Origin: a virus
Reading direction: 5' to 3' (one strand)
Length of the DNA: 63,920 nt
IMG/VR virus record: IMGVR_UViG_3300044464_000029
Coordinates: 1-63,920 of that record
The notes beneath the pieces are model-generated. The model did not search any database and was not told the origin of the DNA. It saw only the letters and a list, made by a program, of their open reading frames with translations. The translations under genes were made by a program, and so were the position numbers. Shown piece after piece: positions 3,362 through 59,588 of this stretch. Every line of letters starts with the position of its first letter. Position 1 is the first letter of the stretch.

Positions 3362-3375
3362 TTTCACATCCCTTT

Positions 3376-3426
3376 TAGTAGTACAACACCACACAGATAC
3401 TAGATCTGTATGATGCAATTCTACTA
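3376..3426. repeat. Nested-hairpin intergenic element 4
   Basis: Outer arms TAGTAG/CTACTA (3376-3381, 3421-3426) enclose a perfect inner hairpin ACAGAT-actag-ATCTGT (3393-3409). The linkers TACAACACC and ATGATGCAATT match those of elements 1 and 6 although both stems differ, which points to structure being maintained. Confidence 0.7.
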
Positions 3427-3714
3427 AAGCGGTGGTTCTTCCCATTGTGGTACTACGTTATGTACAGTAGAACCAGGATCATTCAAATCGTCTAATTCAT
3501 CATTGATGTACTTGTCTATTTGCGAATCTTTGTAACGTTCACAAGCACTCATGTATGCGTCGAATCGATGTAGAAGATTCAAACAGCCATTATAAAAATC
3601 ATTGTCTGTCGTATTGCTACCAGGTCCATTTTCGCTAGAGAATTTCCGCAACAATACACGAAACTCAGTTGGAGTGAGCATCATTGCGTCTGAATGGAAC
3701 ATGATTTCAGTCAT
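3424..3714 (-). CDS. Hypothetical protein
   Basis: 96 residues, unrecognised. Starts MTEIMFHSDAMMLTPTEFR; overlaps the upstream gene's end by eight bases. Mostly helical with an acidic middle (NDELDDLNDP) and a Trp/Pro-rich end. Its stop lies in nested-hairpin element 4. Confidence 0.55.
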   Translation of the reverse strand: MTEIMFHSDAMMLTPTEFRVLLRKFSSENGPGSNTTDNDFYNGCLNLLHRFDAYMSACERYKDSQIDKYINDELDDLNDPGSTVHNVVPQWEEPPL

Positions 3715-4834: not shown

Positions 4835-4847
4835 TTTGCTCCTTATT

Positions 4848-4897
4848 AATAGTACATTACCACACTGGTGTCTAAACCAGCATGATAAAACACTATT
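4848..4897. repeat. Nested-hairpin intergenic element 5
   Basis: Outer arms AATAGT/ACTATT (4848-4853, 4892-4897) enclose CTGGT-N6-ACCAG (4865-4880). It begins at the TAA of the 41-residue zinc peptide and ends about 13 bases before the ATG at 4834. Confidence 0.7.
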
Positions 4898-5021
4898 AAA
4901 GCATAATAAGACTGCGCCACCTAATTTTATTGCACTTGGTGCAAGTCTTTTCTTGGTAGTGACAGATCACGTTCCATACCTTTATTTCGCTCCATTTTGT
5001 GTAATTATGCCAACAGAACAT
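4896..5021 (-). CDS. 41-residue zinc-finger peptide, paralogue B
   Basis: Starts MFCWHNYTKWSEIK and carries C-W-H plus CTKCNK, a compact Cys2-His/Cys2 site. It follows GGAGGACATATTA, and its ATG overlaps the stop of its paralogue (TAATG, 5019-5023). The N-terminus is almost identical to the gene just upstream, so this is a tandem duplication that has diverged. Confidence 0.65.
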   Translation of the reverse strand: MFCWHNYTKWSEIKVWNVICHYQEKTCTKCNKIRWRSLIML

Positions 5022-5671: not shown

Positions 5672-5690
5672 TTACCACTCCAATATAGTT

Positions 5691-5739
5691 AGTTGTACAA
5701 CACAACGCAGGTGCTAGACCCACATCATGCAATGCAACT
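5691..5739. repeat. Nested-hairpin intergenic element 6
   Basis: Outer arms AGTTG/CAACT (5691-5695, 5735-5739) enclose GGT-gctag-ACC (5710-5720), the same loop as element 2. The linkers TACAACACAAC and CATCATGCAATG match the family signature. Confidence 0.7.
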
Positions 5740-5914
5740 AAGTCCATTGCTTTGGATATGCTCCACCATTAATCAAATTTTCATCTAGTTGGTCAACCTT
5801 GCTACATAGTTCATAAGCGGCATTGTGCCATTCACTATCACTGTTAGTATTCTTCATTACTCCCAGAAGCTGCCTGATCTCTTCGAGCGTTTCTGTTGAA
5901 TTGAACTCAGCCAT
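5738..5914 (-). CDS. 58-residue hypothetical protein
   Basis: Starts MAEFNSTETLEEIRQLLG with GAGGAAG upstream. Mostly helical and acidic. A segment EWHNAAYEL resembles EWHTAAYEH in the overlapping upstream gene, hinting that the two share ancestry. The TAG lies at the edge of nested-hairpin element 6. Confidence 0.5.
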   Translation of the reverse strand: MAEFNSTETLEEIRQLLGVMKNTNSDSEWHNAAYELCSKVDQLDENLINGGAYPKQWT

Positions 5915-6090: not shown

Positions 6091-6109
6091 AAGCCTTACT
6101 CCTATCTAT

Positions 6110-6162
6110 TAGATATCCAACACAACACAGGCATTGCTATCCTGTATCATGCAAAACATCTA
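6110..6162. repeat. Nested-hairpin intergenic element 7
   Basis: Outer arms TAGAT/ATCTA (6110-6114, 6158-6162) enclose ACAGG-N9-CCTGT (6127-6145). The linkers CCAACACAAC and ATCATGCAAAAC are as in the other copies. Confidence 0.7.
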
Positions 6163-6357
6163 AGCTAATCTCAACGCTTCCTGCTGGCCGTACACAGCAA
6201 GCGTGACATGCCAGCGATCATTCTCATGACGCCAACCTTCACTCCAACTGTCTTTGACATCATCACAGTATTGGATGAAGTCATTCAAAAATCGATGTGC
6301 ATGTCCATTCTTTAGTTCTACTTCAGTAAAGGTGAACTTAGCAATTACCTTTTCCAT
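6160..6357 (-). CDS. Hypothetical protein
   Basis: 65 residues from the ATG at 6357, which overlaps the upstream stop (TGATG). Starts MEKVIAKFTFTEVEL and ends with a beta strand and short helix. The compact alpha/beta pattern with several His and Asp residues is not recognised. Confidence 0.55.
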   Translation of the reverse strand: MEKVIAKFTFTEVELKNGHAHRFLNDFIQYCDDVKDSWSEGWRHENDRWHVTLAVYGQQEALRLA

Positions 6358-7057: not shown

Positions 7058-7070
7058 TTTATCTCCTAAC

Positions 7071-7129
7071 TAATAGTACATGACGGCACCCGCAGACACA
7101 AAGCCCACAGGTGCCATCAAATGCTATTA
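7071..7129. repeat. Nested-hairpin intergenic element 8
   Basis: Outer arms TAATAG/CTATTA (7071-7076, 7124-7129) and inner arms GGCACC/GGTGCC (7085-7090, 7110-7115), both perfect. It carries CCCACAGG at 7104-7111. Confidence 0.7.
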
Positions 7130-7477
7130 GTCAATACATCGTACATAGTGGTCGAGCGCCATCAACGCCTTGATATTATCAAAAACCAGGCAAGATGAAT
7201 GTCCTAGTTGGTCAATAATTTCAAAGCGAATGGCAGCCAAGAAATCATCTTTATCGAGGATAGTACCAGTACTAGCAAAGGCAGCGAATTGTATTCCTCG
7301 TACGCCACCATCAGCCCACCAAGATGCAATTTCCCGAGCTACTTCGGTGTGAATAATTTCCGTGAAGTATGGCCGCTTTATCCAGTGATCAACTTGCCTA
7401 ACAATGAACTCAGACGTATTGTCCATTGGACAAGGCTGCATATACTCTGGTGGTTTGTGATTCCCAGTACCACGCAT
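7127..7477 (-). CDS. Hypothetical protein
   Basis: 116 residues, unrecognised. Starts MRGTGNHKPPEYMQPCP after GGAAAGG. A globular alpha/beta pattern with several Trp residues (WIKRPYF, SWWADGG) and an N-terminal Pro/Cys segment. Coupled to the 33-residue membrane peptide upstream by TAATG. Confidence 0.55.
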   Translation of the reverse strand: MRGTGNHKPPEYMQPCPMDNTSEFIVRQVDHWIKRPYFTEIIHTEVAREIASWWADGGVRGIQFAAFASTGTILDKDDFLAAIRFEIIDQLGHSSCLVFDNIKALMALDHYVRCID

Positions 7478-7578: not shown

Positions 7579-7591
7579 TTTACTCCTCCTT

Positions 7592-7645
7592 ATTAGTCGT
7601 ACATGAATGCGCTAGTTTACACTAGCACAAACAAATGCGGCTAAT
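7592..7645. repeat. Nested-hairpin intergenic element 9
   Basis: Outer arms ATTAG/CTAAT (7592-7596, 7641-7645) enclose GCTAGT-ttac-ACTAGC (7611-7626). The 3' outer arm contains the stop codon of the preceding gene. Confidence 0.65.
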
Positions 7646-7805
7646 AATCAGACAATGCTACAATTTGCTTAAATGTATTCTCTGCCAACTTGTACACATC
7701 CCATGGCTTTCCATGAAAGGTATCAAATTCCACTTGCATCAAGGCCGCTTCAATGATCCTAGCAGCATCGCTTTCATCTACTCTAATAGTAATGCTCTTT
7801 GCCAT
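7641..7805 (-). CDS. 54-residue hypothetical protein
   Basis: Starts MAKSITIRVDESDAARI after AGGAATAAA. The opening beta strand followed by helices is reminiscent of ribbon-helix-helix regulators, but the match is only in the general pattern, so the product stays hypothetical. Confidence 0.55.
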   Translation of the reverse strand: MAKSITIRVDESDAARIIEAALMQVEFDTFHGKPWDVYKLAENTFKQIVALSDY

Positions 7806-7821
7806 TTTATTCCTCCATTAT

Positions 7822-7875
7822 TAGTTATGCATGACGCTTCCCGAAGAACCCCACAGGAAGCATCAAACGCAACTA
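7822..7875. repeat. Nested-hairpin intergenic element 10
   Basis: Outer arms TAGTT/AACTA (7822-7826, 7871-7875) and inner arms GCTTCC/GGAAGC (7836-7841, 7856-7861). CCCCACAGG (7849-7857) lies within the inner loop. Confidence 0.7.
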
Positions 7876-8025
7876 CTCCGGCTGCACTAATACTTGTTTG
7901 ACCAAGTCTTGCGATGCTGTCTCATGTATGCCCTGCATCCACTGCATGACGTCGGGCCAGGATAGCCCCCGTTCCAGCCCGCTAGTACCATTACGCCAAA
8001 GTATTACCAGTGTGAATTTACCCAC
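7873..8025 (-). CDS. 50-residue hypothetical protein
   Basis: GTG start at 8025 with GGAGGG a few bases upstream. Starts MGKFTLVILWRNGTSG. Its ribosome binding site overlaps copy 1 of the bipartite CCGATTCC-N12-CAATTC motif (8025-8056), suggesting regulation at the start. Function unknown. Confidence 0.55.
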   Translation of the reverse strand: MGKFTLVILWRNGTSGLERGLSWPDVMQWMQGIHETASQDLVKQVLVQPE

Positions 8026-8281: not shown

Positions 8282-8294
8282 TTTGTCATCCTTT

Positions 8295-8342
8295 GGTCGA
8301 ACAACACGACACAGGATTGATCCTGTATCATGCAGAACGGCC
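8295..8342. repeat. Nested-hairpin intergenic element 11
   Basis: Outer arms GGTCG/CGGCC (8295-8299, 8338-8342; one G-T pair) enclose ACAGGA-ttga-TCCTGT (8311-8326). The linkers AACAACACG and ATCATGCAGAAC match the family signature. Confidence 0.65.
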
Positions 8343-8346
8343 AACT

Positions 8347-14560: not shown

Positions 14561-14998
14561 ATATGTCCAGATTTAGGCTGCCATGCCTGATTTGTCATAC
14601 TAAAGGTGGTGAACAGAGCTAGGTGCCTCGATTTGGTACAGAAGATCTTGTATCCGACTTACCCATGCATATGCATCCAGATAGGTGAAATGCAGACTAC
14701 ACCAGACATAGAGTGCAGATCCGTCTTTTGCTGGTAAATGGTACGAAAGCTCCGAATCGTACTTCTCATACGGATTGTTGGTCACATGCCACAAAATCGT
14801 GACATGTCCGGTTTGTCCGATGAAGAAGTCATTCGACTGATTCGTAGCGCTTCCATCCCAACTGTCCCCATAACCGACAGGAAGTGCCGAATCGTCCATA
14901 ATGTCCGAATGGTAAGCCATTTCCGACATGTCGTGGATTTCGTTATTGTCCATTTTTGCCCCTTTTGATGAGGCATGGCAGTCTAAAACTAGACATAT
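14561..14998. repeat. Gene-enclosing inverted repeat, pair 1
   Basis: Arms 14561-14588 and 14971-14998 pair at 25 of 28 positions and enclose the gene 14600-14953 with its ribosome binding site. The right arm overlaps the left arm of pair 2 over AGACATAT. Confidence 0.8.
14600..14953 (-). CDS. Hypothetical protein in inverted repeat
   Basis: 117 residues after AAAAGGGGCAAAA. Starts MDNNEIHDMSEMAYHSD; the N-terminus is acidic and the C-terminal half beta/alpha with several Trp and Tyr. Unrecognised. Enclosed by pair 1. Confidence 0.55.
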   Translation of the reverse strand: MDNNEIHDMSEMAYHSDIMDDSALPVGYGDSWDGSATNQSNDFFIGQTGHVTILWHVTNNPYEKYDSELSYHLPAKDGSALYVWCSLHFTYLDAYAWVSRIQDLLYQIEAPSSVHHL

Positions 14999-15346
14999 GT
15001 AGATTTAAGTGGACATGTCCGCTTTTTCTAGTTTAGCGGGTTTGTCCGATTTCCCACAGATTGTCCATCTCTGTGGTAGTATGGGTGGGAATGTAATCTT
15101 GATGCCAATTGTACCGCATTGCGTGTAACATGCACAATTGCAGCCATCTGACCGTTACATCTACCTCTGCGTCGGTTTTGGCTCCGCCGTCTGGTTCGTG
15201 AAACTCTGTAATGATTCCGACGCAAACGCCCTGATTGCACGTTTTAATGTCATTGTCCAAATCGAACGGTGTGACCAAAGTTCCGATGTTAAGAGCCATT
15301 TTGTCCCCTTTGATGAGGACATGCCCACATAGATCTACATATGTCT
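14991..15346. repeat. Gene-enclosing inverted repeat, pair 2
   Basis: Arms 14991-15020 and 15317-15346 pair at 27 of 30 positions around the gene 15033-15299. Confidence 0.8.
15033..15299 (-). CDS. Hypothetical protein in inverted repeat
   Basis: 88 residues after AAAGGGGACAAA. Starts MALNIGTLVTPFDLDND; beta-rich first half, then a helix with HAMRYNWHQD. Resembles small regulatory-size phage proteins but matches no family I know. Enclosed by pair 2. Confidence 0.55.
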   Translation of the reverse strand: MALNIGTLVTPFDLDNDIKTCNQGVCVGIITEFHEPDGGAKTDAEVDVTVRWLQLCMLHAMRYNWHQDYIPTHTTTEMDNLWEIGQTR

Positions 15347-15347
15347 T

Positions 15348-15696
15348 ACATGTACGGATATAAGGAGATATGGGCTAGATGTCCGATTAGTTCTTTACGA
15401 TCCAGAATGTGATACCAGGTCCGTAAAATATGAATGCCCATTGGTCCGGATCATCCATAATGCCCTTGTCGCCGTAGATGTCGTTAATGTCCGAAATAAC
15501 TTGGATCCATTCTGGCATATTAGAATCATCCCGGGCAGTTAGGGCAAGGTTGCGCAAAATGCGCATACCCTTACGAAATGTGACATCTCCGGCGAAAGCG
15601 AAATCTTCATAGCCATCGTGCTCAAAGCCAACAGACCATGACATAATAACCCCTGTCCGATTTTGTCAGCCCATATCCCCATATATCCGTACATGT
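15348..15696. repeat. Gene-enclosing inverted repeat, pair 3
   Basis: Arms 15348-15376 and 15668-15696 pair at 27 of 29 positions around the gene 15387-15644. Confidence 0.8.
15387..15644 (-). CDS. Hypothetical protein in inverted repeat
   Basis: 85 residues after AGGGGTTATT. Starts MSWSVGFEHDGYEDFAF; globular, with an acidic middle (DINDIYGDKGIMDDP) and an aromatic C-terminus. Unrecognised. Enclosed by pair 3. Confidence 0.55.
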   Translation of the reverse strand: MSWSVGFEHDGYEDFAFAGDVTFRKGMRILRNLALTARDDSNMPEWIQVISDINDIYGDKGIMDDPDQWAFIFYGPGITFWIVKN

Positions 15697-15816
15697 CCCC
15701 CTCCCCCTATATGTCTGAATTTTGCCCATATAGTCGAGAATGCTACAGGGTCCGCCGATTCCTACCAAAAGTCCCAATTCCTTAGGACTCTTATAGGGGT
15801 TCCGCTCGGTATGCAC
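15622..15816 (-). CDS. Doubtful frame with SPKEL motif
   Basis: 64 residues from a GTG, no convincing ribosome binding site. It crosses the right arm of pair 3 and overlaps the next gene by 23 bases. SPKELGLLVGIG arises from copy 4 of the bipartite motif. More likely regulatory DNA than a gene. Confidence 0.2.
   Translation of the reverse strand: MHTERNPYKSPKELGLLVGIGGPCSILDYMGKIQTYRGRGTCTDIWGYGLTKSDRGYYVMVCWL
15755..15786 (-). promoter_or_regulatory. Bipartite fixed-spacing motif, copy 4
   Basis: CCGATTCC (15755-15762), 12 bases, CAATTCCTTAGG (15775-15786), in the otherwise gene-poor stretch 15700-16055. Confidence 0.5.
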
Positions 15817-15851
15817 CTTATGTGCACCCTGTGGGGTCTTATCCCTTTCGC

Positions 15852-15924
15852 CACTTTTGAGTTCTTAAGTTACGATTGTCCGCTTTGGGCGGGACTGCCC
15901 TTTTTCTTTTTTCTTTTTTCTTTT
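15852..15924. promoter_or_regulatory. Duplicated box and polypyrimidine tract
   Basis: GTTCTTAAGTTACGATT (15861-15877) recurs with two changes at 17899-17915, each preceded by a CTTTT run. It is followed here by GGGC-N6-GCCC and a TTTTTC-type pyrimidine tract (about 15900-15924), terminator-like on the plus strand. On the minus strand the box may be a promoter for the block to its left. Confidence 0.4.
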
Positions 15925-15987
15925 AAGTCTAGCACGGACGATGTCGGAAATTCCCGACTTATCATGCTAAACCGGACATTCTGAAAG

Positions 15988-16003
15988 TGTGAGTTAAATC
16001 ACA
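15988..16003. promoter_or_regulatory. Crp-like palindrome, site 2
   Basis: TGTGAGTTAAATCACA, a perfect TGTGA-N6-TCACA, in the non-coding stretch just left of pair 4. Confidence 0.6.
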
Positions 16004-16016
16004 CCCAAAATATCAT

Positions 16017-16294
16017 GATTTAGGAGCTTTAGACCGTCATGTCCGGATTTATCAATTACAGTGCGATTTGGGCGTTACGTCGAATTTGGTACATTTTGAC
16101 CACAATGTCCAATTGGCGGTCAATGACGTTAATGTGCGGTTCGTTCATTATGCACAGAAAGTTCTGCTTGTCCATTTTGTCCAAGAAGTCCATCATGCGA
16201 CGAAACTTCCCGATTGTGACTCTTTCTGCTGCTTTTTCCATTTTTAGTCCTTTGTCCGATTTGGTCGGACATGACGGTTTAGAACTACTAAAGC
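16017..16294. repeat. Gene-enclosing inverted repeat, pair 4
   Basis: Arms 16017-16045 and 16266-16294 pair at 24 of 29 positions around the gene 16056-16241. The core CGGACATGACGGT is perfect. Confidence 0.7.
16056..16241 (-). CDS. Hypothetical protein in inverted repeat
   Basis: 61 residues after AAAGGACTAAAA. Starts MEKAAERVTIGKFRRMMD; helical and basic. Unrecognised. Enclosed by pair 4. Confidence 0.55.
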   Translation of the reverse strand: MEKAAERVTIGKFRRMMDFLDKMDKQNFLCIMNEPHINVIDRQLDIVVKMYQIRRNAQIAL

Positions 16295-16297
16295 ATG

Positions 16298-16606
16298 AAT
16301 TATCCTGGTTTAGAAGGCTATGTCTGGTTTGTCGTTTTAGTCCTGTGAGCGGTTTTTGCGCCTTTCATCCCGAATTAAGACAAGTGCCCGGTATGTGGCC
16401 AAAACGTCGTCTTCGTCCTTAATGCCGGATTTGACTACTTCGTCGTAAATGGCCTCATTTGTCCAAGTTGAGAGCAATCGGCGTGATATGCCCGTATAGA
16501 CCTTCATGTGCACTTTTGGGGTGGATGTCCAGAGATATGGCAATGTTACCATTTTAGCTCCCTATGTCCGATTTATCCAGACATAGCCCTTTAGACCAGG
16601 ATAATT
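16298..16606. repeat. Gene-enclosing inverted repeat, pair 5
   Basis: Arms 16298-16327 and 16577-16606 pair at 27 of 30 positions around the gene 16337-16552. Confidence 0.8.
16337..16552 (-). CDS. Hypothetical protein in inverted repeat
   Basis: 71 residues after AGGGAGCTAAA. Starts MVTLPYLWTSTPKVHMK, with a helical, charged C-terminus (RALVLIRDERRKNRSQD). Unrecognised. Enclosed by pair 5. Confidence 0.55.
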   Translation of the reverse strand: MVTLPYLWTSTPKVHMKVYTGISRRLLSTWTNEAIYDEVVKSGIKDEDDVLATYRALVLIRDERRKNRSQD

Positions 16607-16608
16607 CT

Positions 16609-16863
16609 GACTTACTACCTTTTGTCCGGCATGTCTGATTTGCGGATTAATTCACTATAAGAGTGGAAGTGTCCGACATCGCCCAGATAAGCAACATAAT
16701 GAGTGCTATGTTGAACAATGCGGCAATTATTACTTCTACGTGCTTTGTCGCGAATGTCTGAATTGACCAGGTACGCACGTGCTTGCCGTGATATGCCATG
16801 GTATTCCCCTTTTGTCCGATTTTGGCTGTTTTGGCAGACATGCCGGATAAGAGGTAGTAAGTC
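16609..16863. repeat. Gene-enclosing inverted repeat, pair 6
   Basis: Arms 16609-16637 and 16835-16863 pair at 27 of 29 positions around the gene 16647-16799. Confidence 0.8.
16647..16799 (-). CDS. 50-residue membrane protein in inverted repeat
   Basis: Starts MAYHGKHVRTWSIQTF after AAAAGGGGAATACC. One membrane helix (VEVIIAALFNIALIMLLIW) and a short polar tail. The longer frame upstream is rejected because it crosses the right arm. Enclosed by pair 6. Confidence 0.55.
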   Translation of the reverse strand: MAYHGKHVRTWSIQTFATKHVEVIIAALFNIALIMLLIWAMSDTSTLIVN

Positions 16864-16874
16864 TTTAATGTGCC

Positions 16875-17203
16875 ACATGTACGGATATAGCAGGATATGT
16901 CCGATTTCGTCCTACTGTGTGATGTTTTGGAACGATTCGGCCGCATTCAGCCAGCTATGCGAAGAATGCCACCATTTGTCCGTTCTGTCCTCTGAGTCCC
17001 AAATGACCACATAGAACCCATTGCCCATATTGTCGCATATGTCCAATTTGACCACTACGACCGTATTGTCCGAATTGTAGTAGTGTGGCGCAAATGCCAC
17101 GATCTGCCCGTATTTCTCCATTTGCGCAATAACATCCAGAATGTCCATCTTTGTACTCCTATGTCCGATTTATTCGGACATATCCTGTTAAATCCGTACA
17201 TGT
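16875..17203. repeat. Gene-enclosing inverted repeat, pair 7
   Basis: Arms 16875-16904 and 17174-17203 pair at 28 of 30 positions around the gene 16912-17148. A local hairpin TATGTCCGA/TCGGACATA (17160-17182) competes with the right arm next to the ribosome binding site. Confidence 0.8.
16912..17148 (-). CDS. Hypothetical protein in inverted repeat
   Basis: 78 residues after AGGAGTACAAAG. Starts MDILDVIAQMEKYGQIV; alternating strands (VVVVKLDICDNMGNGFYVV) and Trp/Ser-rich C-terminus (DKWWHSSHSW). Unrecognised. Enclosed by pair 7. Confidence 0.55.
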   Translation of the reverse strand: MDILDVIAQMEKYGQIVAFAPHYYNSDNTVVVVKLDICDNMGNGFYVVIWDSEDRTDKWWHSSHSWLNAAESFQNITQ

Positions 17204-17206
17204 CCA

Positions 17207-17587
17207 GAATTATCCAGGTTTGGGAGGGTATGTCCGTTTTATACTAGACGCAGCCGATTCGCCACGGTTCGACGGATATAACACGACTTTCCGGGACAAT
17301 CTCCCATACAAGCCGCAATTCCGACTCAAGTGGTGCATCTGGGTACATTTGGAACGCTTCGCGCATTTCGACCATATCGCCCATATTGGGCAGATCAGTC
17401 ACAATGTAGACAAAGTTGGATTTTCCGTCCATAACGGACATTTCGTATTCTTCGAAGAATTCGGTAAAACCCACCGTTTCTCCGATTTTTACGGTATATC
17501 CGTTATTGTCCACAAATTCGCCAAGTTTCATAATAACTCCTCTTATGTCCGATTTGTCGGACATACCCTCTCAGACCCGGATAATTC
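17207..17587. repeat. Gene-enclosing inverted repeat, pair 8
   Basis: Arms 17207-17236 and 17558-17587 pair at 27 of 30 positions around the gene 17244-17531. A local ATGTCCGA/TCGGACAT hairpin (about 17545-17564) sits three bases before the ribosome binding site. Confidence 0.8.
17244..17531 (-). CDS. Hypothetical protein in inverted repeat
   Basis: 95 residues from the ATG at 17531 after GAGGAGTTATT. Starts MKLGEFVDNNGYTVKIGET; beta-rich with TVKIGETVGF and MSVMDGKSNFVYIVTD strands, then a helix. Unrecognised. Enclosed by pair 8. Confidence 0.55.
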   Translation of the reverse strand: MKLGEFVDNNGYTVKIGETVGFTEFFEEYEMSVMDGKSNFVYIVTDLPNMGDMVEMREAFQMYPDAPLESELRLVWEIVPESRVISVEPWRIGCV

Positions 17588-17599
17588 CGGTAAGACCTC

Positions 17600-17870
17600 C
17601 ATGTACCCTATAACCGACATGTCCGTTATTCCCTAGTTTGTCGGATTTAGCAGTTCTGCTAGCTCAATTCGGGCTTTTTCCTCTATTTGCGACATTTCCT
17701 TGTAAGTCGGGCATGTCGCCTTTTTACACCCCGAATGGGTCCGAATGTGGACATTTACCTTATCCACTAGGTTTTCCCAGATTATCACCTTTTTGGCGGT
17801 TTCTCCACGAAATACCATGTTAACTCCCTCTATGTCCGATTTAGTGGACATGTCGGTTATGGGGCACATG
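17600..17870. repeat. Gene-enclosing inverted repeat, pair 9
   Basis: Arms 17600-17624 and 17846-17870 pair at 23 of 25 positions around the gene 17633-17818. Confidence 0.75.
17633..17818 (-). CDS. Hypothetical protein in inverted repeat
   Basis: 61 residues from the ATG at 17818 after GAGGGAGTTAAC. Starts MVFRGETAKKVIIWENL; HSGCKKATCPTYKEM could bind a metal. Rightmost gene of the leftward block. Enclosed by pair 9. Confidence 0.55.
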   Translation of the reverse strand: MVFRGETAKKVIIWENLVDKVNVHIRTHSGCKKATCPTYKEMSQIEEKARIELAELLNPTN

Positions 17871-18138
17871 TGGCCTTTGTCCGATTTTCCTCTTTTTAGT
17901 TATTAAGTAACGATTCGGGGGAATTTCACCGGTTTGCCGGAATTTTCCGGTATTTCCGTTTTCCACCTATTGTCTTGTTTTTCTGTTCTGCCTTAATTCT
18001 ACAGGGGCCCTATATGGGCCATATGTCCGATATAGGGTATATATCATGACATAGTGGGTCAAAAAATATACCCCTATGTACTACTATATACGGCATATCG
18101 GACATATACGGGCACAAGGCCCAAATGGGATGTTGATC

Positions 18139-20549: not shown

Positions 20550-22991
20550 ATGTTAACTGGTGGACGAGCGGTCTCTAAAGAAAAGTATTTTGAGCATATT
20601 GGCTATAAGCCACATGAGAAGCAACAACTGTTTCATGATAGCAACGCAAGATTTAAGATTCCTGTATGCGGTAGAAGATTCGGAAAACTTCTCGATGTAA
20701 ATACAATAATTCCAACAGTTAATGGTATGATTAAGATTGGCGATTTGTCTGTTGGAGATCAAGTATTTGATGAGAATGGTTTAGTTTGTAATGTTATAGG
20801 TGTAAGTGAAATACAGCACCGCGAAGATGTATTTGAGTTAACGTTCGACGATGGCAATACATTAGTTGCACATGGTGAACATGAGTGGCTAACATATGAC
20901 AAGAAAGCTCGAAAGACACGTGATTCTGTCGATAGCTTACATGCATCTGATAGTCGTAGAAAAATTGTACCCCCCGCAGTTAGAACTACAAACGAAATTA
21001 GAAACACATTAATTGCACTAGGAGAAACCAATCACGCAATTGAGCTGACTAAGCCAATTGAGTACCCAAAGCAAGATTTGCCTATAGATCCATATTTGCT
21101 AGGTGTTTGGCTTGGTGATGGTAGCACTAATGATGGCGTAATTACCTTGCCTGATTATGACGAATGGATCTTAAGCAAGATTCAAGATCGTGGTTATGAA
21201 ATTACAAGAACACAAAGCAAAGATCGTTGTCCGCAATGGCGTGTACTTGGCTTACGAACCTTGTTAAAAGATAATTTCTTACTTGGCAACAAAAGAGTTC
21301 CAGTTGCTTACTTGTATGGTAGTGTGGAACAACGTAGAGATCTACTACATGGCTTGATGGATACAGATGGTACAGTAGGAAATAATCATGTGGATTTTGA
21401 TAATACTAATGAAAAACTTGCTGCGGTTGTTGATTACTTGATTTGCTCTCTTGGCGGTCGAGTGACTAGATCAAAGCGCATTGGTAAGCTGTATGGTGTA
21501 GAAAAGAAAATGTGTTACAGAGTGCATACCGGAAACATAATTGATGTGTTTAGTTTGCCTAGAAAATTAGAAGCCCAACAGAAATTACCATTCAGAAATC
21601 GTTATTATAGATTCATAAAATCAGTTGAGCCTGCCACACCAAGACTGATGCGTTGTATTGCTGTAGATTCTCCTTCAAATTTGTATTTAGCTGGCAAAGC
21701 TTTCATTCCAACTCACAATACATACATGGGAGCAAGAGAGGCTGAACCTCTCTTGATGGTGCCGAATAAGCACATATGGATCGTTGGGCCAACTTATGAT
21801 CTTGGAGAGAAGGAATTCCGGGTCATTTGGCAAGATATGATTGTAAAACTGGGTATGGGTCGCGAGAAGCAAATTCGTAAAGCATTCAACAAACGTGCTG
21901 GCGATATGTTTATTGAATTCCCCTGGAATACTAGAATTGAAGTGAGATCTGCCGATCGACCGGAAACTTTGGTCGGTGATGCTTTAGATTATGTAATTAT
22001 GGCAGAAGCTGCTAAGCATACTAAAGAAACCTGGGATCGTTATATTAGACCAGCGCTAGCCGACCGCAGAGGTTCCGCAACCTTCAGTACGACACCCGAG
22101 GGTCAGAATTGGATTCATGATCTGTGGCAGCTTGGTCGTAACCCACTCTTCGATGATTATGAATCGTGGAGATTTCCATCTTGGGAAAACAAAGTAGTTT
22201 ATCCTGATGGTAGAAACGATAAAGAAATAATTCTACTTGAACGAACAATGCCGCCAGAATGGTTCTTACAGGAAATTGCGGCTGATTTTACTAGCTTCAT
22301 GGGTAAGATTTACTCGGAGTGGGATGAAATAACACATGTTAGGCCACATAAATATAACCCACTCTGGAAAAATTATATAGCATTTGACTGGGGTTTCGTT
22401 AACCCAATGGCCGCAGTAGAATTTCAAGTTGATCCAATGGATCGCATTCATGTTTGGCGTTTGCATTACAAGACACATACCAGACTTGAAACATTCTTAC
22501 ACCAAATGCAAGACAGAGAACAGCCTGAAGGTTATAAAATTGATCTTTGTTTCGGAGATGCTGCGGATCCTGAAGCAGTAGCAACAGTGTGCGCAAGGTT
22601 CGCTCCTTGCATTGCTGATCCGCTTTCAAAGTCAAATTGGCGAGAAGGCATAGATTTAGTAAAAAGTTTTCTCTCGACCCGTACCGTAGGGTACCTCGAC
22701 GAATTCGAAACACCGCTAGACGAGCCATGGCTATTTGTAGACCCTGCCTGTGGGGATTTGATCCGCGAGTTCAATAACTACCGGGCGGTTGCACCTAGTT
22801 CAGGTAAGCCGAGAAACCCGAGAGAAGACGCCCAGAAGTATGATGACCACGCACTAGACGCATTGCGCTACGCTTTAATGCATATTTTCAAACTTGGTGC
22901 AACCATGAGCTTGAGTGAAGTTATGATGGATCAGATAATGGAAGATAAACCAGCCACAGGTTACTTTACCTCAAATAAGGAATTTGTGTGA
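20550..22991 (+). CDS. terL: Terminase large subunit with intein
   Basis: 813 residues before splicing, about 469 after. The mature protein is the packaging motor: Walker A VCGRRFGK-T (residues 39-46, then Thr391 after the intein), Walker B YVIMAEAAK, and a C-terminal RNase H-like nuclease with DWGFVNP, FGDAADPEA and DDHALDALRY acidic residues. It cuts concatemeric DNA and drives it into proheads through the portal encoded downstream. The 344-residue intein (20688-21719) splits the P-loop exactly between Lys and Thr, so packaging depends on splicing. Confidence 0.9.
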   Translation: MLTGGRAVSKEKYFEHIGYKPHEKQQLFHDSNARFKIPVCGRRFGKLLDVNTIIPTVNGMIKIGDLSVGDQVFDENGLVCNVIGVSEIQHREDVFELTFDDGNTLVAHGEHEWLTYDKKARKTRDSVDSLHASDSRRKIVPPAVRTTNEIRNTLIALGETNHAIELTKPIEYPKQDLPIDPYLLGVWLGDGSTNDGVITLPDYDEWILSKIQDRGYEITRTQSKDRCPQWRVLGLRTLLKDNFLLGNKRVPVAYLYGSVEQRRDLLHGLMDTDGTVGNNHVDFDNTNEKLAAVVDYLICSLGGRVTRSKRIGKLYGVEKKMCYRVHTGNIIDVFSLPRKLEAQQKLPFRNRYYRFIKSVEPATPRLMRCIAVDSPSNLYLAGKAFIPTHNTYMGAREAEPLLMVPNKHIWIVGPTYDLGEKEFRVIWQDMIVKLGMGREKQIRKAFNKRAGDMFIEFPWNTRIEVRSADRPETLVGDALDYVIMAEAAKHTKETWDRYIRPALADRRGSATFSTTPEGQNWIHDLWQLGRNPLFDDYESWRFPSWENKVVYPDGRNDKEIILLERTMPPEWFLQEIAADFTSFMGKIYSEWDEITHVRPHKYNPLWKNYIAFDWGFVNPMAAVEFQVDPMDRIHVWRLHYKTHTRLETFLHQMQDREQPEGYKIDLCFGDAADPEAVATVCARFAPCIADPLSKSNWREGIDLVKSFLSTRTVGYLDEFETPLDEPWLFVDPACGDLIREFNNYRAVAPSSGKPRNPREDAQKYDDHALDALRYALMHIFKLGATMSLSEVMMDQIMEDKPATGYFTSNKEFV
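20688..21719 (+). mobile_element. Class 3 intein with LAGLIDADG domain in terminase
   Basis: 344 codons. The first residue is Leu (LLDVNT) where class 1 inteins have Cys or Ser. The WCT triad of class 3 inteins is present: Trp in GEHEW (block B), Cys in LMRCIAVDS (block F) and Thr in FIPTHN (block G), with Thr as +1 residue. DPYLLGVWLGDGS and LLHGLMDTDGTVG are the two LAGLIDADG motifs, both with intact Asp, so the homing endonuclease may be active. The insertion site is the conserved P-loop. Confidence 0.85.
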
Positions 22992-47275: not shown

Positions 47276-47627
47276 TGATTGCACCTACTAATTCGGTTTT
47301 GATAACTTCTCCTAGTAATTGCTCTTCATAATATTCTAATGGCATGATACATATATTCAATTCGAAATCCCAAATAGATCCTGATAGTGTGCAGAACACA
47401 TCCACAGAATGTCTCATCTTCACTAGATCTTCTGGTGGTGCATCTTTGTGTTCTTCACAACCAAAACCGCCAGGATGCAAACCTTCTTCATCAAGAGTGT
47501 CAAACATGAAATGAACCACCACAGGAAGCGCATCACAGTCTAAACTAGGATCGTAGGACTCGCCAGGAATACCACTGTTGTATCCACAAGAAGGTCTGTC
47601 TCTCAATGCACCAACTCGATTATCCAT
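47268..47627 (-). CDS. Hypothetical protein
   Basis: 119 residues from the ATG at 47627, overlapping the polymerase stop (TAATG). Starts MDNRVGALRDRPSCGYN; GLHPGGFGCEEHKDAPPED suggests a metal-binding loop. Unrecognised. Confidence 0.5.
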   Translation of the reverse strand: MDNRVGALRDRPSCGYNSGIPGESYDPSLDCDALPVVVHFMFDTLDEEGLHPGGFGCEEHKDAPPEDLVKMRHSVDVFCTLSGSIWDFELNICIMPLEYYEEQLLGEVIKTELVGAIND

Positions 47628-50600
47628 TACAACTCCGACCATCTTTTGCCAATTGACGCATCGACCACAAATGGTACGTAGTTGGTGAATGCTCGTCCTG
47701 CTGCTGTCATCTCTTCATTGATGATTGAAGTTACTTCATCTGCATCTGTTTCTTTGCATTCTACGATTAATGCATCATGGATTGTTAAACGTATAGTGGC
47801 TAAATCGTGTAGTCTCGGTTGTAGTTTAATAAGAGCGGTGAGGGTAATATCTGATGAGATGGATTGTGGTAGGAAGGAAAGAGCTTCGTTGATGACATCT
47901 GCTCGATTTTGGTCGGTAATAAGCCAGAAGGAACGCTTACGACCGAATGACGTCGTGAGATCTTCCCCAGCCAAGATCTTGTGCGTAATTGATGCTTGCC
48001 ACGATACCGTAGCTGGGATGAGCGCCTTGAAATTTGCAAGTAGTTCACGGGATTCCTCGATTGGTATTCCTAGTTCCGTTCCAATAGAGGCAGCACCTCT
48101 ACCGTAACTGTTGCCAGTCAAAACTGTTAACCCATTTTGATGCATAGTCCAAGTACCTAATTCAGTCTTTACACACCAAACATCTGTTTTACGTGGATTA
48201 TATCTGTGAATCATTTGCCCAGTAAGAATCGGTTTTGCGAGTCTATGTTTAAAATGATTTTTAGTTTGTGTTTCACTTGAATTATCCAAACGGGATTTTA
48301 CCAAATACCCTTCTAAATATCCAATAATTTTTATTACCTCATTTAACCAGCCACTACTTTGTGAAATTATATTGGTTGATTTTGTTCCTTCCGCTTGATC
48401 TACTGCATTAAAAAATGCTTTTCTTTGTAAGTTACTCATTGATAATGCAAATTGCACCGGATCACATTTATCGATCAAATTGGCTCTTATTAGTAAATCA
48501 CGAGCAGTTTCAGCAGGAATATTCCACCATACTTGCGATCTGTTTTCATATTCATACTTGGTATTATTGTATCCGATTAATAATTCATTAATTGTTTTAT
48601 AGTGCTCACTAGTTTTGTCTTGACAAATACGTAGCTTGACGCCTCTACGCCTGCCATCAAGACCTTGTGCTGTTGTATTATTGATTGATTTTATATCAAC
48701 ACTTCCATCACTATAAGCCCAACCCAAAATTGCAGCTTCTTGTTCAGTTATATCTATCTTAGAATCAGAATCAAAATCAAATGCTAATAACAATCGCGTA
48801 TCATTATTTATATTTTTTGTGGTAGTAAATTGTTGAACCCATGTACGCTTTCCATTTATACTTTTACGTTGTTCACTAATCCAACGGTGATTTGGTGTTG
48901 TTTCAAACGTAATATTGCTATGACCAAAACTATAAACATCTGCATCATTATAAGTTAGTACTTCTTCAATTTTGGTCCATCTAGACTTGGCCAAATTTTT
49001 ATCATATCCAATTGTTTCATCTACACCTGGTATAACTTTATCATAAGTTAGCCAACCACGGCGTGTCAAAATTTTTGTATCGATTGGCACACACAATCCA
49101 TAAAAGACAGATTTTATTTTTACTCGTTCTTCTTTGTTCCAGACACTTCCATAAATCTGTTCTGTTAATTCATTGAAGATATCTCGGGTTGGATCTCGGA
49201 AAATACTAGCCAAATATTCATCATGTGCTAGTGTAGTGATTACTCGACCTTCAGATTGCTTTTGATCAACTTGAATTAAAACATTTTCCGGATGAGATAC
49301 TGTAAATTGCTTTTTAATTCGCTTATCACGGACGATGTTTTGTAGGTTGGGATTCTTCGAAGCGAGCCGCCCCGATGTCGTCCCGTGTAATGTGTAGGTC
49401 GTGAAGACTCGGCCTTTATAGACTCGCTTCTGGAAGCCCTTAACATACGTTCCGTCGAGCTTCGTTCGCCTTCTGTGAAGTAGGAGTTGTTCAATGAATG
49501 TCCTTATGTTATCTTTCAATCCCTGACGTGCTAGGACAGCTTCCAATGTATCTGCATTAGTAGTTTCTAATCTAAAACCTTCATCAGCAAACCATTTTAA
49601 AATTTGCATCGGCGATCTAGGATTTAGATTCCTACCTGTGGTGCCTGATATTTGCACTTCAAGATCATATAGTTCTTTATCAAACATTTCATGCAGTTCT
49701 TCACTATATTTCTCATCAAAAGTAATGCCAGCCCGTTCCAAACCCATCAAAGCGTTGGAGGCTTGAATGAGAAAATCGTGTTGCTTTCGTTCTCTATCTC
49801 CAAACTTACTGGAGAACAACTCGTACAGATCCCAAGTTGCACCAACATCGAAAGCATTGTATTTATAAAGAATGTGCTTTGGAATTGCACCGTAATCTTT
49901 CCCACGGGGAATGTATTGCTTGATAGCTGCTTCCCAGTCTGGTGCTCCCAATAGTTCAATTGCAAGCTTCTTAAGTCCATGAAGTCCTGGCCGTTCATCT
50001 AGGCAATAACTCATGAGCATGGTATCCGCGAATAATTCTAATTCACCGAATACTGGAAACATACCATTCAGATCGAACTTACCATTATGTCCAATGAGTT
50101 TTTTAGTTCTGAAAAGCTTCTTAAGAACTTCAACAACACGTGCTACATATAGTGCAGCACCAGCAAATACAACTGCTCTACCACGGGCATACGCAATACC
50201 AACACAAAGTAAAGTGTAATGTTCAGGATGGGCGAAAGAAAAGTCTTTATCCATTCCTGCTTCGATGTCGATGATTAATGGACCATCAAGTTCCATTAGT
50301 CTATTGGCAGCTTCAATGATTGTGTCTTCAGTGGTGAACACACGATACTTTGGTTCATTCCATTTCTCGTATATTCTACCTTTTAGTTTTCCTGTATCTG
50401 ATACGAATGATGGAAAGTTATCAGGAGAACGTAAGCAATAAGCTGGGTGCCATGATGCTACAACTTTAACTTCTGGATTCTCAATGTATGGTTTAGGTGG
50501 GCCAACACGCAATGCTGAGATTTTCTTTTTCGGATCGATCAGCACGCTGGCTGCGGTACCACCTACAGCTAAAATCTTGTCTACGCCGCTGTGAGCCAGC

Positions 50601-50914
50601 TCCGCGTCCAGTCTGGGCTTGCAGGCGGCAACCGCTGCCTTGGGTGGATCATCGTTATTTTGTGGTCTACACAAACAGACATTTGTTACCATAACTTCAG
50701 AACGTTCGTATCCATGATGACTAAGTACTTGATCTAACAACCTACCCGACGGTCCTGTAAATGGAATACCTCGACCGGCTTCATAAGCACCTGGCGCTTC
50801 ACCTACTACCGCGAGCTTAGCTCTTGGCTGTGGGTTCTGTGTTGGAACAAATGGTGCTTTTTCAAATGGACATTTTTCGCAAATTGCTAATGGGTGTTTT
50901 CTGTGCACCGTCAC
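47627..50914 (-). CDS. Uracil-DNA glycosylase / DNA polymerase A fusion with intein
   Basis: 1095 residues before splicing. Residues 1-175 are a family 4 uracil-DNA glycosylase: GEAPG (38-42), SWHPAYC, and Cys12, Cys15, Cys82 and Cys98 in the 4Fe-4S spacing. Then a 3'-5' exonuclease (IDIEAG, IGHNGKFDL, DVGATWDLYE) and a family A polymerase (motif A VDQKQSEGR near 548, motif B KSVFYGL-SYGRG, motif C LTIHDALIVE). The intein at 48110-49093 splits motif B. Likely the replicative polymerase; an N-terminal UDG-like domain also occurs in SPO1 polymerase. Confidence 0.85.
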   Translation of the reverse strand: MTVHRKHPLAICEKCPFEKAPFVPTQNPQPRAKLAVVGEAPGAYEAGRGIPFTGPSGRLLDQVLSHHGYERSEVMVTNVCLCRPQNNDDPPKAAVAACKPRLDAELAHSGVDKILAVGGTAASVLIDPKKKISALRVGPPKPYIENPEVKVVASWHPAYCLRSPDNFPSFVSDTGKLKGRIYEKWNEPKYRVFTTEDTIIEAANRLMELDGPLIIDIEAGMDKDFSFAHPEHYTLLCVGIAYARGRAVVFAGAALYVARVVEVLKKLFRTKKLIGHNGKFDLNGMFPVFGELELFADTMLMSYCLDERPGLHGLKKLAIELLGAPDWEAAIKQYIPRGKDYGAIPKHILYKYNAFDVGATWDLYELFSSKFGDRERKQHDFLIQASNALMGLERAGITFDEKYSEELHEMFDKELYDLEVQISGTTGRNLNPRSPMQILKWFADEGFRLETTNADTLEAVLARQGLKDNIRTFIEQLLLHRRRTKLDGTYVKGFQKRVYKGRVFTTYTLHGTTSGRLASKNPNLQNIVRDKRIKKQFTVSHPENVLIQVDQKQSEGRVITTLAHDEYLASIFRDPTRDIFNELTEQIYGSVWNKEERVKIKSVFYGLCVPIDTKILTRRGWLTYDKVIPGVDETIGYDKNLAKSRWTKIEEVLTYNDADVYSFGHSNITFETTPNHRWISEQRKSINGKRTWVQQFTTTKNINNDTRLLLAFDFDSDSKIDITEQEAAILGWAYSDGSVDIKSINNTTAQGLDGRRRGVKLRICQDKTSEHYKTINELLIGYNNTKYEYENRSQVWWNIPAETARDLLIRANLIDKCDPVQFALSMSNLQRKAFFNAVDQAEGTKSTNIISQSSGWLNEVIKIIGYLEGYLVKSRLDNSSETQTKNHFKHRLAKPILTGQMIHRYNPRKTDVWCVKTELGTWTMHQNGLTVLTGNSYGRGAASIGTELGIPIEESRELLANFKALIPATVSWQASITHKILAGEDLTTSFGRKRSFWLITDQNRADVINEALSFLPQSISSDITLTALIKLQPRLHDLATIRLTIHDALIVECKETDADEVTSIINEEMTAAGRAFTNYVPFVVDASIGKRWSEL
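48110..49093 (-). mobile_element. Class 1 intein in DNA polymerase
   Basis: 328 codons. Starts at Cys (CVPIDTKILTRRGW), block B TPNHRW, ends VLTGN with Ser as +1 residue. The penultimate His is Gly. AAILGWAYSDGSVD and AFFNAVDQAEGT are candidate LAGLIDADG motifs, the second degenerate. Splits the O-helix (KSVFYGL|SYGRG), the most conserved polymerase motif. Confidence 0.8.
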
Positions 50915-51237: not shown

Positions 51238-51542
51238 TACGTAGTTACCTTCTCTGCGGAAGAGCCATACATGGCTCCATCATTTGATATAGTTTCGACC
51301 TGAGTCCAGACTACACCCTCTCCATTAACATAATGCTTACAAAGATCATCTGCAAGCCAATCGCAAATACTATAAATACCATCTGAAGTAGTGTAAGAGA
51401 GTTTGTAATCTTTTAGGAATTTATATACTTGTTGTTTTAGATCTTCAACTGCAATATGATCAATGTTTCTTGGACCGTGTAATCGTACTGAAAAATCCGT
51501 AGATAAATATCTTAATCTTACGCCAATGTATGGCATTCTCAT
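51237..51542 (-). CDS. Hypothetical protein
   Basis: 101 residues; ATG overlaps the PrimPol stop. MRMPYIGVRLRYLSTDFSV then a helix and CDWLADDLCKHY. Unrecognised. Confidence 0.5.
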   Translation of the reverse strand: MRMPYIGVRLRYLSTDFSVRLHGPRNIDHIAVEDLKQQVYKFLKDYKLSYTTSDGIYSICDWLADDLCKHYVNGEGVVWTQVETISNDGAMYGSSAEKVTT

Positions 51543-54500
51543 TTCCCAACATATCTAGGTTGACCTCCAAAGCTGGAGAGAAATAAGAGTCGACGCTGAT
51601 TGATTGTTGTTAGCAACAGTTCTGCACGTCTGGAATCTAGTCTGAACTTTCTCATGATGTCGGAACGACCAACGCCCATTGGGCCTGCTTGAATAGAAAA
51701 ATCAACAATTGCATCAATCATACGCTCGTCAGAACTCTTACCAATGCCATTAACCATTTCGCTTGCATATACGTGCCAGTGTCTACAGTAATAAATAGCA
51801 TGAACAATATCTCTTTCTTCTACAGTTACAGATCCTCCATCTAGTTGTTGCGATGCTGCAATCAATATTGCTGCTTTGAGTGTTGACTTTGCCAACCTGT
51901 CATATACTGGAGTCAAATGTGGCAGTCCAGTATCTAGTGCGGCATTTGTTAAAGTGTTTTCCAATTGATTGTACCGTTCCCAAGCCTCTGGTGTCAACGT
52001 TGCATCGAATTCAGGACGCAAACTCGCTGTTGATTTTCCATCTGGCATGAGAACCATACGAGGACTATTATATTGCATGTCTATGTTTATTAATTCATCC
52101 TTGATTAGATTACGCTCTTCATGAGTTACTTTAACTGGCGGGCCCACAGGGCGTACTCTGTCTCGATCTGCTACTGCGGTAATGAATACAAATCTTGGAA
52201 TGAATCCACTATTTACATGTTCTTCACTCAACAACATTTGCATCTTTGTCTTGACACCACCAGCAAAGATGATGAGTCGTGGATCTCTGATTGAAATTTC
52301 TTCTTTACGAAGCAAACGCTTTAGGTTTTGTCCGTCGTAAAGCTTAGTTAGTTGTTCGCCCAAACCAGCCATGTAATCTTTGTGAGCCATCTGCTCGATT
52401 AGACCAGTGAACTCATCACGCAAATAGATTGATGGCTTCTTTGGCCTATCCTTCATTGCAGATAGAATACCTTCAGGTGAACCATCGGTACCCATAATGG
52501 CATCGGGATTGACTTCATCCAACAATGACATTGCAATATTCATGGCAGTAGTATTATGCGTTAGAATAAAATCATCTGTAATGTACAAACCATCTTCGTT
52601 GTCTACTTTAATACATTGCATTGGTTTTTGTCCAACGTGTTCTATTTTTTTAATAACACGTGGACGAGCCCACGATCTGTTATTTAGTCTTATTGCTTTT
52701 CTTGATAAAGAAAATGGATTAATTCCCATTGGCATTGATACACTAACCAAATGGCTATCTTTGCATTTTATAAAATTGCCATCTATATCATTATATCCAG
52801 CTTCATGTCCTCCATCATATTTGCTCCAACCTCCAAGAGATCTCACCAAATATTGAACCTGCAATGCAAGTTTCTTAGAGCTTGAAGCAAAATTTGTAGA
52901 TCTGTTTTCTCCGACCCATCCATCAGTATCCATTAGTCCACGAAGTAGAGCTAATCTTTGATCTGCCGATCCTAACCAATAATTTTTAGGTATAAATTTC
53001 TCATGACTATGAGTTCCACGTAGACCCAAAACTTTTATTGCATTACTAACATAATTTTCTTTACTCCAACGGCTCATTCTTGTAGTTATTCTATAATCAA
53101 CACCATCATTTGATACTTTATCCAAATACAATTCATGTTCTTTTATTTTTTCTCTAATTGTAAATAGTACTTCTTCGTCAATACCTGAAAATCTTATGCT
53201 ACCATCATCGTAAAATGTGCCATTACCAAGAAGCAATCCTAACAAATATGGATCTAATATTAAATCTTGAGTTGGCAATTGAACTGGTTCAACCATTGGA
53301 ATTTGTCTAACCCATGTGCCATTATGATCTTGTAGTGGTGTAGACATTAGTTTTTTTAATGTCCAAGTAGACCATTTAGATTTTTTTCCTGGACGTTTGT
53401 GTGTCCATAGATGATCACTAGAACATTCAGTTTTTGCTCCATCATTAAATGTAACTTTATAGTTTTGTTTGACACCTTGAGGATAAATACCTAGAACTGT
53501 TGTAGGTTTACCATCACTACCAATTACTTGTTCCCCAATTTTAATATCACCCATCAACTTCCAACCGTTAATGGTCAAAATCTTTGCATCTAATGGTTGT
53601 GCTTTTCTTGTCAATGTTGTATCTGCAACAATCATAAACCAAAGATTAGGAATTACCATACCGAATGATGTATCGAGTTTAATTGCTCCACAGAGTATTG
53701 CACTGAGAATAACGAACGCACCAGCTTGATGGTACTGTGGCGCTGCGTCAGTTAGATCTGACGCCCACTTTATATATTTTTCTACAAAGGTTACTCTAGC
53801 CTGAACTTGCTTAACTTCCTCTTCTGAGATTAGTTCAGGAATCACTGCTGTGGGGGTTGGTATTAAGTTATGTGATTCAAATTCTTTTACATATACCTTC
53901 TTGATTTCAGCCCACAAATCTTTCTGTGGTCTACCATCTCGGGCATATTTGTTGCATGCAGCACTGCGTACTACAGAGAATGTTTCTTCTGGAGACATTC
54001 CAGCCTCGCTACAAAGCTTAGCGAGCTTCCACTGTAGCTTGCTCCAATCATCTTGTTCAGTTGGTTCTTCAACAAACAGACTATACGCACTTGGATGCAA
54101 CACCATGCGATAGCGTTGCATGATGTCTTCGGGGTTTTCCTGTGGGAGATCTTCAGGAAGCGGCACCGGATTATCAACGAACTTTAATGCATCATATGCT
54201 GGATATGCAACGAAATCTGAAGGACGATATAGAGCCGACGTTGTTGTCAGAACGGTAACAATAGGAGCAGTATGCAAATCACCATACTTGTAATTTGGCG
54301 TATAAGGCACACGCATTAGTTGAGTAAGATCCCAACCACTACGATCGGCGCCTTGATCTGCATGGAAATAAGCGATTTTCATGCATAATGTTTGTGCAGC
54401 GTCAGGCGATAGTGATTCTTCCATTCGCCAAAACGCTTGCCATCTTCCAGTACTAGATTGAACAACAATAGAAGCCGGCACTTGTAGAACCTGCGGATTG

Positions 54501-59378: not shown

Positions 59379-59441
59379 TTGTTATCCTTTGTTAAGTTTC
59401 CATGACCACACATAGGTTGTCCTATGTATGATCAAAGCAAC
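59379..59441. other. Short gap with hairpin
   Basis: 63 bp containing ACATAGG-ttgt-CCTATGT (59409-59426), a 7-bp hairpin between the zinc peptide and the nuclease gene. Possibly a processing or attenuation site. Confidence 0.4.
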
Positions 59442-59588
59442 TTATTTTGCTAGATTGTGCATCTTATCATAGTGTCCGATGTGGAATGGAACGTTGTTCA
59501 TGGCGGGTCTATATGGATTAGCATTTAGATCATATCTTTGTATCTTTTGCCAAAACCATATCTTCTTACCACACTGCCCACAAATCAT
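59442..59588 (-). CDS. 48-residue zinc peptide
   Basis: MICGQCGKKIWFWQ at the start is a typical zinc knuckle; the rest is polar with two His. AAGGTGTAAT precedes the ATG. Too small for confident assignment. Confidence 0.5.
   Translation of the reverse strand: MICGQCGKKIWFWQKIQRYDLNANPYRPAMNNVPFHIGHYDKMHNLAK

Follow-up and report, generated by a model that had tools for sequence, protein, structure and literature searches.

The closest described counterpart of the element reported here is the leader-trailer helix of rRNA operons, in which an inverted repeat of 25-40 bp with variable, covarying arms surrounds each RNA and several such units follow one another on one transcript (PMC10250234; PMC7038931); RNase III cuts these helices at a site in mid-helix (PMC10250234). 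In IMGVR_UViG_3300044464_000029, a record of an uncultured phage (positions 1-63,920, 63.9 kb; 'the window' below), we describe an array of nine small genes, each lying between the two arms of an inverted repeat of its own. As in RNase III processing stems, the flanks of the RNA that would be released form a long covarying helix. Here, however, protein-coding phage genes are enclosed instead of ribosomal RNA, the window having no match to a known RNA family in Rfam up to E = 1, and cleavage is something we infer. The conserved element also differs, being a symmetric core of mismatch, 2 bp and mismatch in place of the boxC of rRNA helices.

The R1.1 RNase III site of phage T7 carries a 4/5-nt internal loop, and phage RNase III sites may therefore contain such loops (PMC6121014). 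Like the array stems, signals of this type are intergenic elements of phage mRNA with two helices around an internal loop (PMC6121014), but the T7 sites are local hairpins, whereas each array stem has a whole gene within it and a symmetric internal loop. A second class of hairpins in the window is closely similar to them. In cluster K mycobacteriophages, too, small genes have a recurring leader motif ahead of their start codons, the SAS/ESAS, with inverted repeats just upstream (PMC3203893). Yet ESAS are local 17-bp dyads upstream of one start, with a consensus shared across the genome and a 4-13 bp spacer, while the array arms flank the gene and are private; since they differ in this way and the scan used for the window found no gene-enclosing private pairs in the ESAS phages Adephagia or Pixie, we reject identity with that system. 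Archaeal bulge-helix-bulge motifs have two 3-nt bulges, one on either strand, around a 4-bp helix. They resemble the array in placing a symmetric interruption in a stem that encloses an RNA (PMC7038931), but the array has 1x1 mismatches 2 bp apart, lacks bulges and occurs in phages of probably bacterial hosts, so that it does not fit this type. In the literature covered, largely outside subscription journals, we found no report of protein-coding genes each held in a private stem, in phages or elsewhere. As an mRNA architecture the array seems new, though it probably works much as rRNA processing stems do.

The array and its arms

The whole window was scanned for gap-free inverted repeats 60-900 bp apart. 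All nine enclosing pairs that had been proposed from inspection of the DNA alone (the original prediction) were recovered in place, with 23-28 matches over 25-33 nt, and no further gene-enclosing pair of comparable strength was present across the whole 64 kb, the sole extra match being a 16-nt by-product within the array region. Scored at +1 per match and -2 per mismatch, all nine pairs of the 3.45-kb region reached at least 18; in 200 dinucleotide-preserving shuffles of that region the maximum was 14 and none attained 16, so that the shuffling control suggested with the prediction yielded no comparable chance pairs. The features, all on the - strand except where no strand applies, are as follows.

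14561..14588 and 14971..14998, -: 3' and 5' arms of unit 1, 25/28 paired
14600..14953, -: unit 1 gene, 117 amino acids (aa), ORFan; the L009 homologue is 72% identical and lies in a different arm pair
14991..15020 and 15317..15346, -: 3' and 5' arms of unit 2, 27/30 paired; the 3' arm shares 8 nt with the outer end of the unit 1 5' arm
15033..15299, -: unit 2 gene, 88 aa, cluster 0 (8 members, each in its own stem)
15348..15376 and 15668..15696, -: 3' and 5' arms of unit 3, 27/29 paired
15387..15644, -: unit 3 gene, 85 aa, cluster 3
15697..16012, no strand: gap between sub-arrays; holds a repeated leader element near 15855-15885
16013..16045 and 16266..16298, -: 3' and 5' arms of unit 4, 28/33 paired; core CUAA/CUAA
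16056..16241, -: unit 4 gene, 61 aa, cluster 9; weak match to PHROG 187
16297..16327 and 16577..16607, -: 3' and 5' arms of unit 5, 28/31 paired; core CUAA/CUAA
16337..16552, -: unit 5 gene, 71 aa, cluster 1 (8 members, each enclosed)
16609..16637 and 16835..16863, -: 3' and 5' arms of unit 6, 27/29 paired; core CUUA/CAAA
16647..16799, -: unit 6 gene, 50 aa
16875..16904 and 17174..17203, -: 3' and 5' arms of unit 7, 28/30 paired; core UUAA/CUAU
16912..17148, -: unit 7 gene, 78 aa
17207..17236 and 17558..17587, -: 3' and 5' arms of unit 8, 27/30 paired; core CUGA/CCAA
17244..17531, -: unit 8 gene, 95 aa, cluster 8
17600..17624 and 17846..17870, -: 3' and 5' arms of unit 9, first on the transcript, 23/25 paired
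17633..17818, -: unit 9 gene, 61 aa

The claim that every reading frame from 14.56 to 17.87 kb is enclosed needs one refinement: the nine units form sub-arrays of three and six, separated by 316 bp (15697-16012) without a unit. Likewise, the arms were said to differ between pairs, and this is true of their outer remainder only, as most share an inner end, TATGTCCG, and a central TTTAG-like core. Even so, each arm matched its own partner at 21-24 of 24 positions, against 2-20 across pairs.

On the mRNA a unit reads 5' arm, short leader with ribosome binding site, start codon, gene, stop, 3' arm; the binding site lies inside each unit, as predicted, and the arms are entirely non-coding. In most units the stop is 6-20 nt from the 3' arm; CGGACAWA and GGAGACAAA are found in the leaders of the window's clade. 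A unit holds one small ORFan gene of 40-117 codons (at the widest, 40-150; a few have two open reading frames), units stand in rows of 1-12, and neighbours abut, or share a few bases, at their outer arm ends. The enclosed proteins fall into 43 clusters, 13 of them with more than one member. Those of the window are, as had been noted, mutually unrelated: the nine are unlike each other, none has a Pfam family above cut-off or anything firm in PHROGs, and seven that were queried against 50,697 phage records had no match there.

Compensatory evolution of an mRNA helix

A search with TerL yielded 30 viral contigs; the window's TerL is at most 36% identical to that of Microbacterium and Arthrobacter phages. 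Ten of these contigs (L009, L010, L011, L013, L015, L016, L017, L019, L020 and L024) have the same array, adjoining the terminase region with its genes on the opposite strand, and it is also present in L118, an 80-kb record of L012 from its other end. In a profile search (80 loci, partly overlapping the TerL set), 1-6 gene-enclosing stems were found in each of twelve more distant contigs (L032, L044, L046, L047, L049, L058, L069, L074, L077, L079, L082 and L086), with arm sequences unrelated to those of the window. Other relatives, such as L026, L034 and L037, have no enclosing stems within 10 kb, nor is there an array in the last 20 kb, the far end, of the L046 record. Cultured relatives gave no nucleotide match to the window, and neither Wollypog nor the terminase region of Micrococcus phage Kurnik has enclosing pairs. 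A set of 84,980 prokaryote species genomes yielded only three TerL relatives, L114, L115 and L116, from UASB270, a SAR202 metagenome-assembled genome (MAG) and a Poribacteria MAG; these are probably phage contigs binned with MAGs.

The 84 units of the window's clade were aligned, anchored on the core. The helix runs over 29 positions, from -12 to +16, with sharp boundaries (pairing drops at -14 and at +17/+18), and is laid out as 12 bp, mismatch, 2 bp, mismatch and 13 bp. Apart from the two core positions, 97.8% of cells are paired, and sliding one arm by 1-3 nt leaves only 24-44%. Permuting partners within a contig gives a mean of 61.6% (maximum 68.2%), a value as high as this because the inner arm end is shared. 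Most helix positions show all four Watson-Crick types. Across 113 orthologous unit pairs, 1162 cells had changed on both sides and were still paired, 160 had changed on one side and were still paired, and 141 were unpaired in one member; the compensatory changes that the original prediction had suggested looking for in relatives are therefore massive. In two cases (L009_6710/L024_5602 and L016_5799/L019_2047) genes 82% identical carry different arms that nonetheless pair. G.U imperfections outside the core number 83 when read on the mRNA strand, compared with 12 on the opposite strand (55 units vs 3; sign test, p 2e-13). Such a bias marks the mRNA as the selected molecule, as a DNA-level site would not produce it, and together with the differing arms around these 82%-identical genes it indicates selection on an RNA helix, not on a DNA site. 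A functional RNA from the + strand, where the core mismatches would be G.U, was considered and rejected: the non-core G.U pairs follow the mRNA strand, and the alternative U.U cores would read A.A on the + strand.

Folded singly with ViennaRNA, every unit forms its stem, with a mean pair probability of 0.80-0.96, and seven of the nine stems form in the full 3.4-kb transcript. The long stem envisaged between the 5' and 3' untranslated ends of each gene is thus supported by the shuffle null, by compensatory change in relatives and by the strand bias of G.U pairs, and at the level of sequence comparison an mRNA helix of each gene's own untranslated ends, maintained by compensatory evolution, is shown.

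Between contigs, whole units of arm, gene and arm have been gained, lost, reordered and duplicated, as the original prediction had proposed to check. The outer halves of arms are only a little more alike in orthologous units (0.51) than in unrelated ones (0.38). The first unit of the transcript has a recognisable arm type (0.52 vs 0.32) that recurs in relatives around different genes, and the 5' arm of unit 9 is of this type. Judged from these comparisons, the coupling of arm and gene is only loose.

The symmetric core and a second class of hairpins

Although the helix has 29 positions, its centre is interrupted in most units by two mismatches. Counted without any anchoring, non-G.U mismatches lie 3 nt apart 57 times and at any other spacing at most 5 times. 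Position 0 is C.A in 55/84 and U.U in 11/84 units; position +3 is A.C in 61/84 and U.U in 7/84; positions +1 and +2 are always paired, mostly as U-A and A-U. Both strands thus usually read 5'-CNNA-3' about a two-fold axis, with 12-13 bp on either side. The identical type of core is found in stems of unrelated sequence (L046_992, L049_1395, L049_1854, L032_1194, L032_1923 and stems of L074, L082 and L086), and L049_2337, again with unrelated arms, has U.U at both positions. The two-fold symmetry suggests a homodimeric reader, and the 2-bp centre would be the geometry expected of a cut leaving 2-nt 3' overhangs.

A covariance model (R1), built from seven hairpins of the remaining leftward genes, has eleven matches in the window, eight in L118 (836-8079) and a weak one in L009; the family has no Rfam match. 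Those of the window are:

5688..5743, -: example hairpin; core C.A / 2 bp / U.U, 13-bp upper stem
724-780, -: hairpin
1887-1943, -: hairpin
3373-3429, -: hairpin
4844-4901, -: hairpin
6107-6165, -: hairpin
7069-7132, -: hairpin
7591-7646, -: hairpin
7819-7878, -: hairpin
8292-8346, -: hairpin
59390-59447, -: hairpin

Their covariation is strong (113 double-changed cells vs 32 in shuffles) and sliding abolishes pairing. The core consists of C.A in 9/20 (otherwise another pair), two pairs and U.U in 20/20, below a 13-bp upper stem; like T7 R1.1, these are intercistronic hairpins in which an internal loop separates two helices. In the window a hairpin commonly takes in, within its first bases, the stop codon of the gene upstream, and any start codon called downstream is 10-17 nt further on. 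Because hairpins and array stems share one geometry, the phage appears to mark many intercistronic junctions by a single structural signal. By sequence, this signal appears to take two forms: gene-enclosing stems in the small-gene array and local hairpins elsewhere in the operon.

Candidate functions of the stems

Of the three functions put forward originally, RNase III processing fits best. We favour it, at a probability of roughly 55%, because the core is conserved and two-fold symmetric: the stems would serve processing by a homodimeric endoribonuclease specific for double strands, the likeliest being host RNase III. The leftward operon would be transcribed as a polycistron with each small gene within its private 29-position helix, and at the symmetric core RNase III would cleave the two strands, each of them at CNN^A if the 3' overhang is 2 nt. 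Single-gene mRNAs would thereby be released from the polycistron, their ends held together by the 13 bp of inner helix left after cutting, which may shield them from exonucleases and make the expression of each gene independent of its neighbours. The private outer arms would keep each 5' arm paired with its own 3' arm and not with a neighbour's. The logic would be that of the 16S and 23S rRNA leader-trailer helices, transferred to protein-coding genes.

Several points weigh against processing. Ten contigs searched for a phage-coded RNase III or a double-strand RNA-binding domain gave no credible candidate (a dsrm match of 12.8 bits, below cut-off, occurs in the L032 record), so that the enzyme would have to be the host's. 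About one third of units lack one or both core mismatches, and the stem of L016_5799 is perfectly paired; the core is therefore not obligatory. Two of the nine stems are outcompeted by other structures in the minimum free energy fold of the whole transcript. Mismatches beside a cut site can direct cutting to a single strand or counter RNase III altogether. This last point leads to the main rival, an appreciably less probable reading in which the helix is never cut and itself loops each gene, guards its ends against exonucleases and separates neighbours, the mismatches stopping RNase III from destroying a 29-bp helix. Such a clamp is equally consistent with compensatory evolution, the mismatches leave segments of 12 and 13 bp, which are short for RNase III, and the leader-trailer helix of Escherichia coli rRNA is important even apart from the enzyme (PMC10250234). 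Yet mismatches of any place or kind would suffice to prevent cleavage, whereas those observed are fixed, symmetric, 3 nt apart and mostly A.C, and the same mismatch core also occurs in the local intergenic hairpins.

Translational control, the second of the functions originally proposed, strikes us as rather improbable. The 5' arm would pair with the leader beside or over the ribosome binding site until the 3' arm frees it, so that only completed mRNAs are translated. The shared inner end TATGTCCG is indeed complementary to a motif, CGGACATA, just before the binding site, and predicted accessibility of the site is 0.55 with the 3' arm and 0.43 without it (44 units up, 18 down, p 0.001); in L032 unit 1598, whose 5' arm has complementarity to the entire site, it is 0.47 and falls to 0.05 without the 3' arm. 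But the difference is slight and goes the other way in several units, including those at 14561 and 16875 in the window, the leader motif does not track arms with deviant inner ends, and the core is left unexplained. DNA cassettes, the third proposal, in which each unit is mobile and its arms serve as ends for recombination or transposition, are very unlikely. Units do come, go, move and multiply between relatives, and the first-position arm type recurs around different genes, but the arms do not accompany the genes, as the 82%-identical genes with different arm pairs illustrate, and arms that do not travel with their genes are unlikely to be recombination ends; moreover, the imperfections obey RNA G.U rules on one strand and the asymmetry of the core is fixed on the mRNA strand. 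For the same reason a transposon or integron-like cassette was rejected, since the terminal repeats do not travel with orthologous genes. Finally, the region is rich in TGTCCG and GGACAT, but chance, low complexity or an assembly artefact has a negligible probability given the shuffles and the recurrence of the design in more than 20 contigs from separate metagenomes.

If the array is processed as we propose, it would represent a new organisation of gene expression, in which each mRNA of an operon lies in its own covarying helix and genes can be added, lost and exchanged as self-contained expression units without disturbing their neighbours. More broadly, and only tentatively, the locus may be a protein-coding operon on the rRNA-operon plan, with a promoter and an antiterminator-like leader followed by genes that the nuclease processing the host's rRNA would cut individually out of leader-trailer helices of their own, leaving single-gene mRNAs with paired ends, and with the symmetric CNNA core as a general, sequence-independent processing signal common to the intergenic hairpins. 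The more than 100 stems (84 close, 24 distant) form a natural library for what a double-strand-specific nuclease recognises, informative in that the mismatch-2bp-mismatch core is kept against freely varying arms. They also provide a signature, independent of sequence, by which operons of this kind could be recognised in other phages, as well as a design template for insulated multi-gene constructs.

In a distant GATC-type clade (L032 1598-1931 and other units) the 5' arm can pair with the region of the ribosome binding site, a possible switch. A recurrent leader element, roughly AATCGTNNYTTATCAACTCAATAGTGACGAA, lies on the - strand at 17890-17915 and at about 15855-15885; it is also found upstream of the first unit in L009, L010, L011, L015, L016, L017, L019, L020 and L024, often downstream of a -10-like TATACT. 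It may resemble the boxA antiterminator of actinobacterial rRNA operons, TTGAGAACTCAAYAGTG; if so, the transcript would look like that of an rRNA operon and the host would be an actinobacterium. Also in the gap separating the sub-arrays, at about 15885-15915 on the + strand, a T run after a GC-rich hairpin (GGGCGGGACTGCCCTTTTTC) forms a terminator-like element opposite to the array genes. Elsewhere in the window, insertions whose splice-like ends were read by eye point to apparent inteins in TerL (20550-22991) and in the DNA polymerase and helicase/primase-like gene (47627-50914, 51539-54811).

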